Source of the DNA: Reyranella massiliensis 521
Lineage (GTDB): Bacteria > Pseudomonadota > Alphaproteobacteria > Reyranellales > Reyranellaceae
Assembly: GCA_945860205.1 (NCBI GenBank)
Contig: CAMARK010000029.1
Location: 1 to 47,999 of the forward strand
Direction: 5' to 3'
DNA length: 47,999 nucleotides
Position 1 is the first letter of the stretch. The number at the start of each line of letters is the position of its first letter. A model generated the notes under the pieces. That model made no database searches and was not told where the DNA came from. It saw only the letters and a list, made by a program, of their open reading frames with translations. A program made the position numbers and the translations under genes. Of the stretch, positions 2,711 to 40,942 are shown one piece after another.

Positions 2711-4312
2711 ATGGGTTCCGACCAGGCGTTGGTGCCGCAACCGACTGAAGCGGACTTTCCCGAGTTCCTCTCGATCCCCGTGCGCGTGGCGCGCAATGCC
2801 GCGCTTTTTCCCGACAAGCCCGCGGTCAAATGCGAAGGCACGACGCGAAGCTGGCGGGATTTCGACCGGCGGGTGAACAGGATTGCCCGCAGCCTGGCCG
2901 GCATGGGTGTCGGCCGCGGCGACAAGGTCGCCATCCTCGCCGCCAATTCGGTCGAGTATCTGGAAACCTTCATGGGCGGCCTGCGGGCCGGCGCCTGCGT
3001 CGTGCCGCTGTCGACCATGGCGGCGGCCGACTCGCTTGAAAAGATGGTCGACGATTGCGACGCCAAGGTCCTGTTCCTGTCGGATCAGTATCGCAGCCTG
3101 GTCGAACCCTACGAGGACCGGCTGGGCAAGCTGATCCCCGGCGGCTGCATCGCCTACGATTTCACCCGCGCGGGCTGGCGGAACTTCGAGGAATGGCTGT
3201 CATCGGCCAGCGACGAGGCCTTCTCCGTGCCGATTGGCGTGCTCGACGACTTCAACATCATCTACAGTTCGGGCACCACGGGCCTGCCCAAGGGCATCCT
3301 GCATAGCCACGTGATGCGCGACATGCTGGCCGTGCGCTTCACCGCGTTCGACTATGGCCCCGACACGATCTCGCTGGCCTCGACGCCGCTCTATTCCAAC
3401 ACGACGCTGGTCTCGGTCCTGGCGACGGTCGGTGTTGGCGGCACCACCATCCTGATGACCAAGTCCGATGTGCCGAAGTTCCTCGAGATCGCCCAGCGCG
3501 AACGCGTGACGCACGCGATGCTGGTGCCGGTACAATATCAACGTGTCCTCGCGCATCCGGACTTCGACAAATACGACCTCAGCTCGTTCAAGGCCAAGCT
3601 TTCGACCAGCGCGCCGCTCAGGGCGCATATCAAGGCGGATTGCCTGGCCCGCTGGCCGGGCCGGTTGATCGAAATCTACGGGCTCACCGAGGGCGCGGGC
3701 AGCTGCATGCTGGAGGCCAACCTCAACCCCGACAAGCTCCATACTGTCGGCAAGCCGGGTCTGGGCAGCGAGATCGTGGTGCTGGACGAGCAGGGCAGGG
3801 TGCTGCCGCAAGGCGAAGTGGGCGAGCTGGCCGGCCGCGCCCAGTTGATGATGAAGGGCTACTACAAGCAGGAAGACAAGACGCGCGAACTCTTCTGGCA
3901 CGACCCCGACGGCCGGCTGTACTTCAAGTCGGGCGACATGGGCAAGATCGACGAGGATGGCTTCATCGTCCTGCTCGATCGCAAGAAGGACATGATCATT
4001 TCCGGCGGTTTCAACGTCTACGCCGCCGACATCGAGGTGATGCTGCTTCGGCATCCCGACGTGATCGACGTGGCGGTGATCGGCATTCCGAGCGACCAGT
4101 GGGGCGAATCGCCGATGGCACTTGCGGTTCTGGCGCCGGGATCCAGGGCGACACCAGAGGAGATCCGCGAATGGGCCAACGGCCAGCTTGCCAAGACGCA
4201 GCGTCTCGTGGCTGTTGAAATTCGCGACTCGCTACCGCGCAGCACCATCGGCAAGATCATGAAACGGGAATTGCGGGAGCCCTACTGGGCAGGCCGCGGC
4301 AGCAAGATCTGA
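2711..4312 (+). CDS. AMP-forming acyl-CoA synthetase (class I adenylate-forming)
   Basis: Activates a carboxylic acid to its CoA thioester via an acyl-adenylate. The 533 residues carry the full ANL-family set: the phosphate loop YSSGTTGLPKG (near residue 180), the A5 motif IYGLTEGAG, the A7/A8 hinge region KSGDMGKIDEDGF and DRKKDMIISGGFNVY, and the catalytic lysine in RSTIGKIMKREL near the C-terminus. The start at 2711 follows the rhodanese stop by 16 bases; the open frame further upstream is in the shadow of the rhodanese gene. Substrate is not predictable, but the family resembles the long-chain or aromatic acid ligases common in alphaproteobacterial catabolic operons. The DUF3237 gene follows after 7 bases. 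Confidence 0.92.
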   Translation: MGSDQALVPQPTEADFPEFLSIPVRVARNAALFPDKPAVKCEGTTRSWRDFDRRVNRIARSLAGMGVGRGDKVAILAANSVEYLETFMGGLRAGACVVPLSTMAAADSLEKMVDDCDAKVLFLSDQYRSLVEPYEDRLGKLIPGGCIAYDFTRAGWRNFEEWLSSASDEAFSVPIGVLDDFNIIYSSGTTGLPKGILHSHVMRDMLAVRFTAFDYGPDTISLASTPLYSNTTLVSVLATVGVGGTTILMTKSDVPKFLEIAQRERVTHAMLVPVQYQRVLAHPDFDKYDLSSFKAKLSTSAPLRAHIKADCLARWPGRLIEIYGLTEGAGSCMLEANLNPDKLHTVGKPGLGSEIVVLDEQGRVLPQGEVGELAGRAQLMMKGYYKQEDKTRELFWHDPDGRLYFKSGDMGKIDEDGFIVLLDRKKDMIISGGFNVYAADIEVMLLRHPDVIDVAVIGIPSDQWGESPMALAVLAPGSRATPEEIREWANGQLAKTQRLVAVEIRDSLPRSTIGKIMKRELREPYWAGRGSKI

Positions 4313-38211: not shown

Positions 38212-39174
38212 ATGAGTGAGAACGCCAATCCAATGCGCTACGGCTTCTATCTTCCCACCCGCGGCCCCACCGCCACACGCGACGGCGTCCTCGCCCTGGC
38301 GCGTGAAGGCGAGCGGCTGGGGCTGCATTCGGCCATGATCGCCGACCACATCGTTTTTCCGGTCGAGAGCGACTCGGCCTATCCCTACACGCTCGATCGC
38401 AAGCATCCCAGCGGCGGCGATGCGCTCGAAACCTTCTCCATCCTGGGCGTCGTCGCGGGTGCCACGGAGAAACTGCGCCTCGTCACGTCGGTTCTCGTGC
38501 TGCCTTATCGCAACCCGGTGCTGACCGCGAAGATGGTGGCGTCGCTCGATATCCTGTCCGGCGGTCGCGTCACGCTGGGTGTCGGCGTCGGCTGGCTGAA
38601 GGAAGAGTTCGAGGCATTGGACAGCCCGGACTTCGACCGGCGCGGCGCCGTGAGCGACGAATGGCTCACGATCTTCAAGCAGCTCTGGACGAATTCGCCC
38701 GCCAGCTTCGCCGGCCAGTTCTATAGCTACAACGACATTCGCTGCGAACCCTTGCCGCTGCAGAAGCCCCATCCGCCCATCTGGGTCGGTGGCCACTCGC
38801 GCGCCGCGCTGCGTCGCACCGCGAGGTATGGCAATGGCTGGCATCCGGTCGGGGCCGTTGCCGCATCGCCGCTGCCGCCCGAGGAAATGCGCGCGCATCT
38901 CGCGACGCTGAAGCAGATGACCGAAGCAGAGGGGCGCGATTTCGCGGCCCTCACCATTTCCTACAAGGCGCCGCTCTACGACACCGGCATTCCCGACCGC
39001 GACGGCGCCCGCCGCAGCTTCTCGGGAAGCGCCCAGGATATCGCGGGCGACATTCGCTCATTCGCCGCTACTGGCGTGCACGAGCTGATCTTCGACTTCC
39101 GCGGCCAGTCCACAGCCGAGAGCATCGAACGACTGCAGCGCTTTGCCGCCGAGGTGATGCCGCTGGTCGATTGA
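38212..39174 (+). CDS. LLM-class flavin-dependent oxidoreductase
   Basis: 320 residues of the luciferase-like monooxygenase fold. MRYGFYLPTRGP, the GLHSAMIADHIVFP barrel strand, LRLVTSVLVLPYRNPVLTAK, GGRVTLGVGVGWLKEEF and PPIWVGGHSRAALRRTARYG are clear. It uses reduced FMN or F420; the segment order resembles the TIGR03619-like F420 branch, but the cofactor cannot be set from sequence. It is 12 bases after the receptor gene. A strong terminator follows 52 bases on. Confidence 0.9.
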   Translation: MSENANPMRYGFYLPTRGPTATRDGVLALAREGERLGLHSAMIADHIVFPVESDSAYPYTLDRKHPSGGDALETFSILGVVAGATEKLRLVTSVLVLPYRNPVLTAKMVASLDILSGGRVTLGVGVGWLKEEFEALDSPDFDRRGAVSDEWLTIFKQLWTNSPASFAGQFYSYNDIRCEPLPLQKPHPPIWVGGHSRAALRRTARYGNGWHPVGAVAASPLPPEEMRAHLATLKQMTEAEGRDFAALTISYKAPLYDTGIPDRDGARRSFSGSAQDIAGDIRSFAATGVHELIFDFRGQSTAESIERLQRFAAEVMPLVD

Positions 39175-39226
39175 GAGTCATTCCTGATTCGACAAGTTCA
39201 GCAGGTTCTGGCATGATTTTTCTGTA

Positions 39227-39254
39227 GGCTGGTGCTTCTTGCGCCGGCCTTTTT
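39227..39254 (+). terminator. rho-independent terminator after the LLM gene
   Basis: GGCTGGTGC-TTCTT-GCGCCGGCC, nine pairs including two G-U, followed by TTTTT (39250-39254). It closes the TPR-receptor-LLM operon. Confidence 0.82.
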
Positions 39255-39706
39255 CGTTCCGGCAAGGGCCTCCCGTGGCCGTCCACGGGTGCGCGCAGCA
39301 AGCGCCAGGTCGCCGCCGCGGGTCCTGACCCGTGGGCTGGATAAAACGATGAGCCGCCGCTTCGGAAGACCGTCCGAAGTTGCCTCAAGGACGCCGGCCA
39401 ACCGGCGCAATGGCCAGGATTGGCGAATGACGGTCGTCGGATAAAGGAAACAAGCCCGAGGTGCCACGCCAGGCACAACTTCGGGCACAACACACGATAC
39501 GTTCAGGTGGGCTGCCTCAGTCGCGGGAAGACGAGGAATTACTGCCTTCTAGGCGGTTCGGAAGCCGAAATTCCATCGGTCGAGTTGGGCCACAACCGCA
39601 GGCCCAATCGCACAAGTCCGGCTCATGGGACGGGCCGTGTCCCGGTCCTTGCCGCGCGGCGGGCGCGCGGGCAAAGTCGCGTCACGTTTCAATTCGGGAG
39701 TTTCGT
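39255..39706 (+). other. hairpin-rich gene-free region, possible structured RNA or leader
   Basis: About 450 bases with no credible protein. Perfect hairpins in order: CCCGTGG-CCGT-CCACGGG (39272-39289), CTTCGGA/TCCGAAG (39360-39379), CGCCGG-CCAA-CCGGCG (39392-39407), a two-stage stem GCCCGA/TCGGGC with GTGCC/GGCAC (39454-39486), and TTGGGCC/GGCCCAA (39585-39607). A GC-rich stem beginning CTTGCCGCGCG lies just before the amidohydrolase ribosome site. No tag peptide, anticodon or RNase P core is recognisable. It could be a cis-acting leader of the amidohydrolase gene or an independent RNA. Confidence 0.45.
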
Positions 39707-40942
39707 ATGGCTACCTTGTATGTCGGCGGGCGTCTGTTCGACGGTGAGAAAGTTCACGACGGACAGGCGGTCCTGGAAGAGGGCGGCAAGATCAAGCGCG
39801 TCGCCCCCCAGGGTGAGTTCGCGGGCTTTGCGGGCGAGCGGGTCGATACCTCCGGCGGCACGCTGATCCCCGGCATCATCGACTGCCACGTCCATTCGCT
39901 GTCCGGCGCCGAGGGCAATCCCGGTGCGGCGCAGGACCGGTTGAGCGCCGCCCAGATCGCGGTGCGCGGCATGGAGTATATGCGCAGCACGCTCGAAGGC
40001 GGCATCACCGCGGTGCGCGACTGCGGCGGCAAGGATTACATCGAGTTCGCCCTGCGCGACGCCTTCAATGCCGGCAAGTTCCTGGGACCGACGATGCGCT
40101 GTGCCGGCCGCATGATCTGCATGACCGGCGGCCACGGCAACCGCACCGGCCGCGTCGCCGACGGAATCGACGAGGTCGTGAAGGCGGTGCGCGAGCAGGT
40201 CCATGCCGGCTCCGACCTGGTGAAGATCATGGCGACCGGCGGCGTGATGACCCAGGGCGTCAATCCCGAGGACGCCCACTATTCGGCCGAGGAGATGAAG
40301 GCGGGCATCAGTGAGGCGCATCGCTTCCACAAATGCTGTGCCAGTCACGCCCAGGGCGCGCTCGGCATCCTGAACGCCGTGCGCGGCGGCATCGATTCGA
40401 TCGAGCACGGCATCTTCATGGACGAGGAGTGCTGCGCGGAGATGAAGGCGCGTGGCGTCTGGCTGGTGCCGACGCTCGCGGCCGTGAAGAACATCCTGAA
40501 GGGCTACGACGACGGCGACCGCTCGATCCCCGACTACGTGATCGAGAAGAGCCGCCGCGTCTACGACCGTCACATCGAAGCGACCAAGATGTACTACAAG
40601 GCCGGTGGCCGCATCGCGATGGGCACCGATGCCGGCACGCCGCACAATCGCCACGGCGAGAATGCGCGCGAGCTCGAATATATGTGCGACATCGGCATCT
40701 CGGCGCGCGATTCGCTGTTCTTTTCCACCGCAAGCGCTGCCGACCTGATGCGCCTGGCCGACCAGGGCCGCATCAAGGAAGGCAACAGCGCCGATCTGGT
40801 GGTGTGCGACGGTGATGCGCTCAGCGACATCAAGCGCGCCGCCCGCAAGGAGAACCATCGCATGGTGGTGAAGCGCGGCGTCGTCGCCCGCGACAACCGC
40901 GCTGCCTTCGTCCGCCAACCCACCCGCGTCGCGGCGGAGTAA
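39707..40942 (+). CDS. metal-dependent amidohydrolase (imidazolonepropionase/prolidase-like)
   Basis: 411 residues of the amidohydrolase superfamily. The metal HxH is CHVH in LIPGIIDCHVHSLSG; the lysine region is LVKIMATGGV, then histidines in FHKCCASHAQG and SIEHGIF, and the aspartate in MGTDAGTPH. The N- and C-terminal beta-sandwich parts (MATLYVGGRLFDG, SADLVVCDGD) are complete. It cleaves an amide, dipeptide or lactam, not further defined. GGGAG ends 6 bases before the ATG; the longer frame upstream extends into the hairpin-rich region and is rejected. Confidence 0.88.
   Translation: MATLYVGGRLFDGEKVHDGQAVLEEGGKIKRVAPQGEFAGFAGERVDTSGGTLIPGIIDCHVHSLSGAEGNPGAAQDRLSAAQIAVRGMEYMRSTLEGGITAVRDCGGKDYIEFALRDAFNAGKFLGPTMRCAGRMICMTGGHGNRTGRVADGIDEVVKAVREQVHAGSDLVKIMATGGVMTQGVNPEDAHYSAEEMKAGISEAHRFHKCCASHAQGALGILNAVRGGIDSIEHGIFMDEECCAEMKARGVWLVPTLAAVKNILKGYDDGDRSIPDYVIEKSRRVYDRHIEATKMYYKAGGRIAMGTDAGTPHNRHGENARELEYMCDIGISARDSLFFSTASAADLMRLADQGRIKEGNSADLVVCDGDALSDIKRAARKENHRMVVKRGVVARDNRAAFVRQPTRVAAE

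Follow-up and report, generated by a model that had tools for sequence, protein, structure and literature searches.

What is encoded in the hairpin-rich gap between two genes of Reyranella massiliensis 521? The gap lies in contig CAMARK010000029.1, of which a stretch of 47,999 nt was analysed (henceforth termed the window; all coordinates are positions in it), and it separates a plus-strand gene for a luciferase-like monooxygenase (PF00296, 38212–39174) from a plus-strand gene for an amidohydrolase (PF01979, 39707–40942). An earlier note, made from the letters of the window, had described positions 39255–39706 as a candidate structured RNA or leader. The first half of that proposal gained ground through compensatory changes and an excess of G-U over A-C combinations in most helices, whereas the second half did not. 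We consider it likely that the region belongs to a clade-specific gene family, whose paralogs are transcribed independently and yield structured non-coding RNAs.

A dispersed element in a hairpin-rich gap

The earlier description of at least five perfect hairpins with stems of 6–7 base pairs holds: five non-overlapping ones occur in 39255–39706, at 39272–39289, 39360–39379, 39392–39407, 39585–39607 and 39652–39670. Their density had been called higher than in other gaps; the excess is real yet modest, since 7 of 300 dinucleotide shuffles of the region and 11 of 421 sliding 452-nt windows from the same 48 kb also reach five. A two-stage stem reported at 39454–39486 is present, although the outer stem (GCCCGAGGT/ACTTCGGGC, 89%) contains one non-pair. 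Single-sequence folding is slightly better than chance for the plus strand (z −1.85; 3 of 100 shuffles at least as good) and not better than chance for the minus strand (z 0.40; 68 of 100). Hairpins and folding of this one region alone are a weak signal. The region had been said to match none of the common RNAs, and Rfam agrees: a scan of the whole window with Rfam 15 (4227 families) at the gathering threshold returned only a tRNA at 70–141, as did ARAGORN near the window start, while region 39100–39800 gave three matches far below threshold (E 1.9–3.6) and the loci of two other copies (L011, L022) gave none up to E 0.5.

Searching the own genome (G000; 4.98 Mb, 210 contigs) with positions 39175–39708 returned 27 DNA matches at E 0.001 or better, the own place included and two conserved blocks counted apart; the two blocks keep their order among these matches. 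A model of the 3' domain finds at least 27 own-genome places, and among the loci fetched, 21 hold a full copy, one has a recognisable 3' domain only and five have just the 5' module. The 5'-domain model reports 39 own-genome places at E 0.01, the weaker ones being short or diverged. Not all short matches can be taken for "solo" promoter-hairpin modules: in several (L167–L169, L179–L183, L185), different hairpin-rich sequence is seen by eye after the module, and these look like diverged subfamilies, with an exact tandem 6-mer and its complement in L168, L179, L180, L182 and L183, and in L013 and L184 an apparent protein gene follows closely.

From a by-eye reading of the copy alignments and of alignments of six orthologous sites, the whole element, one copy of this repeat family, spans 39186–39592 on the plus strand, its start 11 bases after the monooxygenase gene. 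The limits first drawn around the region therefore need shifting, with the unit beginning at 39186 and ending at about 39592, and with 39644–39706 belonging to the amidohydrolase. Near the start of the element lies a sigma-70-like promoter (39189–39217; TCGACA-17-CATGAT, with TG before the second hexamer), the sole promoter-like site that a promoter scan found in 38900–39800 (shuffled mean 0.2). It scores 9/12 in the window copy. The same stretch reaches at least 9/12 in 38 of 79 elements compared with 1 of 790 random 75-nt windows, the copies being related rather than independent, and the best -10 hexamer falls at two adjacent positions in 60 of 79 elements, a nearly fixed position. Transcription would thus be expected to start near 39225.

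Nine nucleotides past the -10 hexamer begins the 5' hairpin (39226–39254, plus strand; AGGCTGGTGC-TTCTT-GCGCCGGCCT followed by TTTT), which is terminator-like and sits at the predicted transcript start. What was taken for a "terminator" bounding the region upstream is this hairpin, which is part of the element and closely follows the promoter-like motif. A terminator scan reports this hairpin as its one site, but since shuffles average 1.0, that result carries no weight by itself; at the 3' end of the element, no terminator was recognised. In one copy (L097; MEMN01000063.1, element 3822–4282, minus strand), a different GC-rich hairpin, also ending in a T-run, replaces the usual one, hinting by eye that terminator-like character rather than sequence is what is kept here. 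In two further own-genome loci (L184 and L186, contigs C41 and C42), the promoter-hairpin module stands by eye ahead of apparent protein-coding frames, in L186 with a second terminator-like hairpin behind it, and there the module may act as a promoter with attenuator for ordinary genes.

Behind the 5' hairpin, a 19-copy consensus fold places a multi-branch 5' domain (39260–39315, plus strand) closed by a nearly invariant CGGC/GCCG stem; in its inner hairpin (CCCGTGG/CCACGGG, 39272–39289), three pairs are changed on both sides among copies. The adjoining hairpin at 39316–39335 (CCGCGGGT-CCTG-ACCCGTGG, plus strand), in which 5 of 8 pairs are changed on both sides in 19 copies, is the strongest family signature (CCGCGGGTCCTGACCCGTGG) and the basis of the exact search pattern. 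A middle domain (39336–39463, plus strand) follows that is exchangeable between copies, as judged from spacing classes; the version here is particular to the window's site, and the middle-domain class can differ at orthologous sites. The spacing between the two end domains is 143–151 nt in 44 of 79 elements (type B), 107–129 nt in 21 (type C) and other in 14; the window copy is type C by length only. One additional full own-genome copy, seen by eye, is of type B (L187, contig C35). The 3' domain (39464–39592, plus strand), supported by covariation tests on aligned copies, contains two tandem arms (39472–39479 and 39483–39491), a single 3' arm that forms helix P1 (39506–39516), hairpin P2 (39522–39535), which is weakly supported with 55.7% of cells paired, hairpin P3 (39542–39568) and a tail, GTTGGGCC (39584–39591), all on the plus strand.

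Outside the own genome, the 3'-domain model matched 18 of 65 same-genus genomes, 16 of them with at least 4–46 copies (per-genome counts from this model are lower bounds) and two with one weak match, and none of 11 other genomes of the order Reyranellales. The 5'-domain model matched 17 of 76 genomes, the same 16 and G059. The weak single 3'-domain matches are in G001 (E 3e-6) and G059 (E 3e-4); G059 additionally shows a single good 5'-domain match (E 4e-14), perhaps a relic of the element, and G001 shows none. In a class sample of 385 genomes, scored on the best 8 candidates per genome so that weak relatives could be missed, three genomes gave weak 3'-domain matches, which we take as chance: that of G187 lies inside a 750-codon open frame that resembles RNase E, and those of G114 and G413 score 21–22 bits with the fold fitted only in part (one of the two in G413 being examined). 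With the exact pattern, 72 stretches were recovered from 12 named assemblies, whose titles read Reyranella, "Alphaproteobacteria bacterium" or, once, "Rhizobium sp. Q54". The last title looks wrong, as this assembly (CAMDOT010000000) shares contig coordinates with G069, a genome of the window's genus. A tree of the amidohydrolase gene has 30 rows, chosen as the best matches among 59 genomes. Of the 16 bearing genomes, 12 are present in this tree, and they form one side of a branch (support 92/94), which is consistent with one origin of the element within the genus. Several copies in G031 lie at contig ends (L135, L145, L156, L158, L159, L171, L172); the element seems to break assemblies, and copy numbers from draft genomes are therefore underestimates. 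No paper on such an element in Reyranella was found in the open-licence PMC literature. By these searches, the family is clade-specific, so far found only within the genus Reyranella.

A conserved fold with putatively competing arms

The copies are dispersed, covary on the plus strand and keep a common layout, in the order promoter-like motif, 5' hairpin with T-run, multi-branch 5' domain, exchangeable middle domain and 3' domain; from this we infer that the element is transcribed and functional. Where covarying pairs were sought, in aligned copies and relatives (19–84 copies), compensatory changes on the plus strand were found. In the own-genome alignment of 19 copies, changes on both sides leave pairing intact at 14 of the 47 pairs in the consensus. 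In the 3' domain (84 copies), 109 cells are changed on both sides (shuffled mean 57.6) and the covariation score is 0.252 (shuffled mean 0.177), neither value being reached in any of 500 shuffles, which leave relatedness in place; the statistics are not tree-corrected, and cells are not independent because copies are related, orthologous sites are counted repeatedly and blocks are exchanged. Both structures of the 3' domain, formed with the first or the second tandem arm, beat all 500 shuffles and all slid versions on three measures: the cells that pair, the cells with changes on both sides and the covariation score. In the arm-1 structure, 78.8% of cells pair, and no slid version exceeds 53.0%. 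The count of pairs changed on both sides is not significant for the arm-1 structure (15 versus a shuffled mean of 13.0; 70 of 500 shuffles do as well) and is reached by 4 of 500 for the arm-2 structure, and a slide of +3 yields 18 and 16 such pairs, above the two unslid structures. The type B middle domain (41 copies) is a closed domain of its own with covarying hairpins; one pair, for example, is C-G in 23, G-C in 11 and U-A in 6 of 41 sequences. Judged from these alignments, the element has conserved secondary structure with compensatory changes, as in large structured non-coding RNAs.

The folded strand can be read from mismatch types. G-U cells outnumber A-C cells in P3 (173 versus 27), P2 (33 versus 10) and the 5' hairpin (25 versus 2, in 19 copies that keep the hairpin with no pair changed on both sides), and the plus strand is therefore the one that folds; helix P1 behaves in the opposite way, A-C exceeding G-U by 41 to 27 with arm 1 and by 29 to 13 with arm 2. 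A protein-coding gene was considered and rejected. Mean stop-free runs on the plus strand are near or below those of shuffled sequences (82.0 versus 100.0 codons in type B, 104.8 versus 103.2 in type C, 91.9 versus 107.8 in others), and the phase between anchors varies among the 30 of 44 type B elements that have all anchors. Runs on the minus strand are somewhat above the shuffled mean (112.4, 110.4 and 110 for types B, C and other), and this test alone does not exclude openness there. The earlier statement that no reading frame occupies the region needs rewording, since open frames mechanically cross it, but it stands for the family's plus-strand runs.

In helix P1, the single 3' arm covaries with both tandem 5' copies: with arm 1 over ten pairs (75.5% of cells paired) and with arm 2 over eight (86.7%; 84 copies). 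Within their final 190 nt, 42 of 79 elements have an exact tandem 6-mer with a downstream complement, compared with a shuffled mean of 1.3 and a maximum of 4 in 30 rounds; on the reverse strand, the same test gives 7 elements. By far the commonest word is GGCCCA (30 elements), and GGCACA, CGGACA, TGGACA, GTCACA and CGACAC also occur. Diverged members behind the promoter-hairpin module have a tandem word, with other words, in 5 of 10 cases (shuffled mean 0.5), a weak support given 4 of 10 on the reverse strand. The window copy is imperfect, with 5 of 6 core pairs to either arm and no exact tandem 6-mer. The tail GTTGGGCC may offer a further partner: GGCACAA/TTGTGCC could pair with the second arm in L037, L058 and L088 and with the first in L092, which is suggestive of pairing with either tandem arm. 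Three own-genome loci (L180, L181 and L182 on contigs C34, C24 and C66), mutually alike by eye, form another subfamily behind the module, in which TTTTCCGACAC...TCGACACGCGGGTGTCGGAAAA and a second similar block again make a tandem word plus complement.

Shared sites, apparent exchange between copies and rival explanations

To what extent do copies stay in place? Of 22 own sites, 14 have an orthologous counterpart with an element of the same orientation in G031, where 33 places were sampled (seven recognised by both flanks, seven by the downstream flank only), and the window's site, common with G031 via L110, brings this to 15 of 22. At shared sites, element identity averages 72.0% in the 5' domain (12 pairs) and 74.7% in the 3' domain (15 pairs), with flank identities of about 78–93%. 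Own paralogs average 67.1% and 62.6% in the two domains; orthology is still visible because they are on average less alike than orthologs. The best own paralog is nevertheless closer than the ortholog in 10 of 12 (5') and 13 of 15 (3') cases, at up to 92%, in a comparison that takes the best of many, and the ortholog is the best G031 match in only 4 of 12 and 4 of 15, one low value stemming from a cut-off copy. The middle-domain class differs at sites matched by both flanks (L024/L029, L022/L087 and probably L032/L081). From these relationships, blocks appear to be exchanged between copies, most simply by gene conversion, and copies to be partly homogenised. The window copy is an exception, its ortholog being its best match (90.5%, 5' domain). 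As a separate observation, L022 (contig C12) and L042 (CAMDOT010000002.1, another assembly of the genus) are 100% identical over 1,300 bases to either side of the element, although the amidohydrolase of G069 is only 93% identical in protein to the own one; the identity reflects either cross-contamination of bins or very recent transfer.

These data bear on the rival that we take most seriously while thinking it unlikely, namely a MITE-like, non-autonomous mobile or selfish DNA element that carries promoter and hairpins by chance and spread once in the ancestor of the branch. Dispersal to 4–46 copies in 16 same-genus genomes, with no good match elsewhere in the order and class samples, fits it well, as do near-equal numbers of elements with and against co-directional neighbours, none of them in a divergent gap. 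Presence is also polymorphic at some sites: among 12 bearing genomes whose locus at the window's site was fetched, six have the element (G000, G039, G051, G031, G025, G055) and six lack it (G050, G021, G069, G048, G029, G018). No clean empty site could be read. At the L016 site, compared in 20 genomes, no place with both flanks adjacent and the element missing occurs among the matches listed, and no exact junction can be read because the own upstream flank is matched in G019, G025, G051 and G053 only, among the matches listed; in G029, a diverged element is seen by eye some 150 bases away from the gene conserved at this site. The copy alignments show, by eye, no terminal inverted repeats. Standing against mobility are the 15 of 22 sites common with G031 in position and orientation, even though half of the 14 flank-matched ones rest on the downstream flank, and the G-U bias in most helices, which points to selection on a folded RNA. 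The one transposase family searched (PF01797, the IS200/IS605-type Y1 transposase) is absent in 12 of 16 bearing genomes; one full copy used as query found no match among 72,556 plasmid and 50,697 phage records, nor did one exact pattern in viral contigs.

Placement bears on two further readings. Among 79 elements, 39 lie between convergent genes, 20 between genes that both run with the element and 19 between genes that both run against it, none in a divergent gap and one undetermined, as judged with a simple GC3-based gene caller and without collapsing orthologous sites; among 142 background gaps of at least 80 nt, 72 are co-directional, 40 divergent and 30 convergent. Called frames of more than 500 bases reach into eight elements (the window's, L050, L052, L055, L056, L071, L073, L097); if such frames are taken as neighbours, L056 and L071 join the class with both genes opposite, and still none is divergent. 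Elements might accordingly be insulators that end transcription between convergent genes, a DNA-level or terminator function that would account for the convergent excess (39/79 versus 30/142) and the terminator-like 5' hairpin, and that sits well with an ordinary terminator-like hairpin seen by eye at one element-free site in L190, L194, L197, L200 and L201. We regard this function as improbable: termination needs neither a covarying, multi-domain structure of about 370 nt nor a promoter-like motif at fixed spacing, and as many elements, 39 of 79, lie outside convergent gaps.

It is very improbable that the element is a cis-acting leader, i.e., a riboswitch or attenuator, of the amidohydrolase, the alternative named in the earlier note. 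The element does lie upstream of this gene, in the same direction, in the window and five relatives, and the gene itself is widespread, matching at E 1e-100 in 59 of 65 same-genus genomes; six other bearing genomes, however, have it with no element upstream. Across the family, both neighbours are co-directional in only 20 of 79 elements and the downstream gene runs the opposite way in 59 of 79, so that no fixed upstream position and orientation is kept and a leader function is unlikely for the family, given the simple gene caller. The amidohydrolase moreover has a leader and probable promoter of its own at 39644–39706 (plus strand; CTTGCC, 16 bases, GGCAAAGT), outside the element. Among the relatives' loci examined (among L105–L134), this motif is exact in 6 of 11 printed orthologous loci that lack the element (L113, L115, L117, L121, L124, L129) and altered in the others; on this evidence, the last ~60 bases before the amidohydrolase are a leader separate from the element. 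Chance hairpins in GC-rich sequence, a reading to which the modest single-sequence excess might have lent credit, are already refuted by the repeat family and its covariation.

Proposed mechanism and relation to known RNAs

For a family of structured non-coding RNAs, the reading we prefer, the layout suggests a course of events. RNA polymerase would start near 39225 and produce an RNA of about 370 nt that ends near 39592. At the transcript start, the 5' hairpin and its U-run may cause most initiations to abort, in which case full RNA would arise by read-through only. In the 3' domain, the two tandem copies of one word would compete for the one arm complementary to them, and the copy that does not pair would stay single-stranded; in the mechanism we favour, this free word, or its loop, would bind a partner RNA or protein in trans, and the many copies would raise dosage and diversify the word. 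Against this reading, a terminator-like hairpin at the start of a supposed 370-nt transcript is odd, the copy in the window is a divergent one, and a one-genus family sited outside divergent gaps also fits a selfish element.

A bolder extension, which we hold to be rather doubtful, is that the two tandem 5' arms and their complement in the shared 3' arm constitute a copy-specific "address word" that changes in concert across paralogs and subfamilies. Elements would then be bistable switches with word-specific pairing to themselves, each other or targets. They would stay orthogonal inside a genome even as gene conversion homogenises the remainder of the RNA and middle domains are swapped. If true, this would be a modular, self-addressed RNA family of an undescribed kind.

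How does the element compare with known systems? FopS of Bacteroides thetaiotaomicron is described as a 14-member paralogous sRNA family of ~65–70 nt with a seed and tested targets (PMC11697453). As there, the Reyranella family consists of multi-copy paralogous non-coding RNA candidates with conserved putative promoters, recognised at the sequence level in the 38 of 79 elements with at least 9/12 at a nearly fixed position. The likeness is one of working only: the Reyranella element has ~400 nt, several domains and an exchangeable middle domain and belongs to another phylum. Conserved secondary structure over hundreds of nucleotides is shared with the large ornate bacterial RNAs OLE, ROOL and GOLLD, for which covariation can reflect pairing between molecules (PMC12286853). 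A repeated genetic element was also reported from an sRNA search in Bordetella pertussis (PMC3110155); the likeness lies in a repeat met in such a search.

OLE, ROOL and GOLLD are usually single-copy per genome or prophage. Unlike them, the Reyranella element has no Rfam match and is dispersed in tens of copies. With REP/BIME and RAYT-linked palindromic repeats it shares a dispersed, palindrome-rich, mosaic organisation, but REP/BIME repeats are tens of bases long, whereas the element has ~400 nt, a promoter-like motif and multi-domain covariation; assignment to this class was rejected, as the Y1 transposase is missing from most bearing genomes (12 of 16 for PF01797). The element works most like multi-copy paralogous sRNAs and looks like large ornate RNAs, and we assign it to neither group.

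There are few large structured RNAs in bacteria, and several of those found have led to new biology. The element combines a size of ~400 nt, tens of paralogs per genome and many shared sites with signs of homogenisation, exchangeable middle domains and a competing-arm helix. If it should be selfish instead, it would be an unusually complex selfish element. Since it seems to have arisen once in one genus, close relatives without the element offer a comparison for testing what it does.
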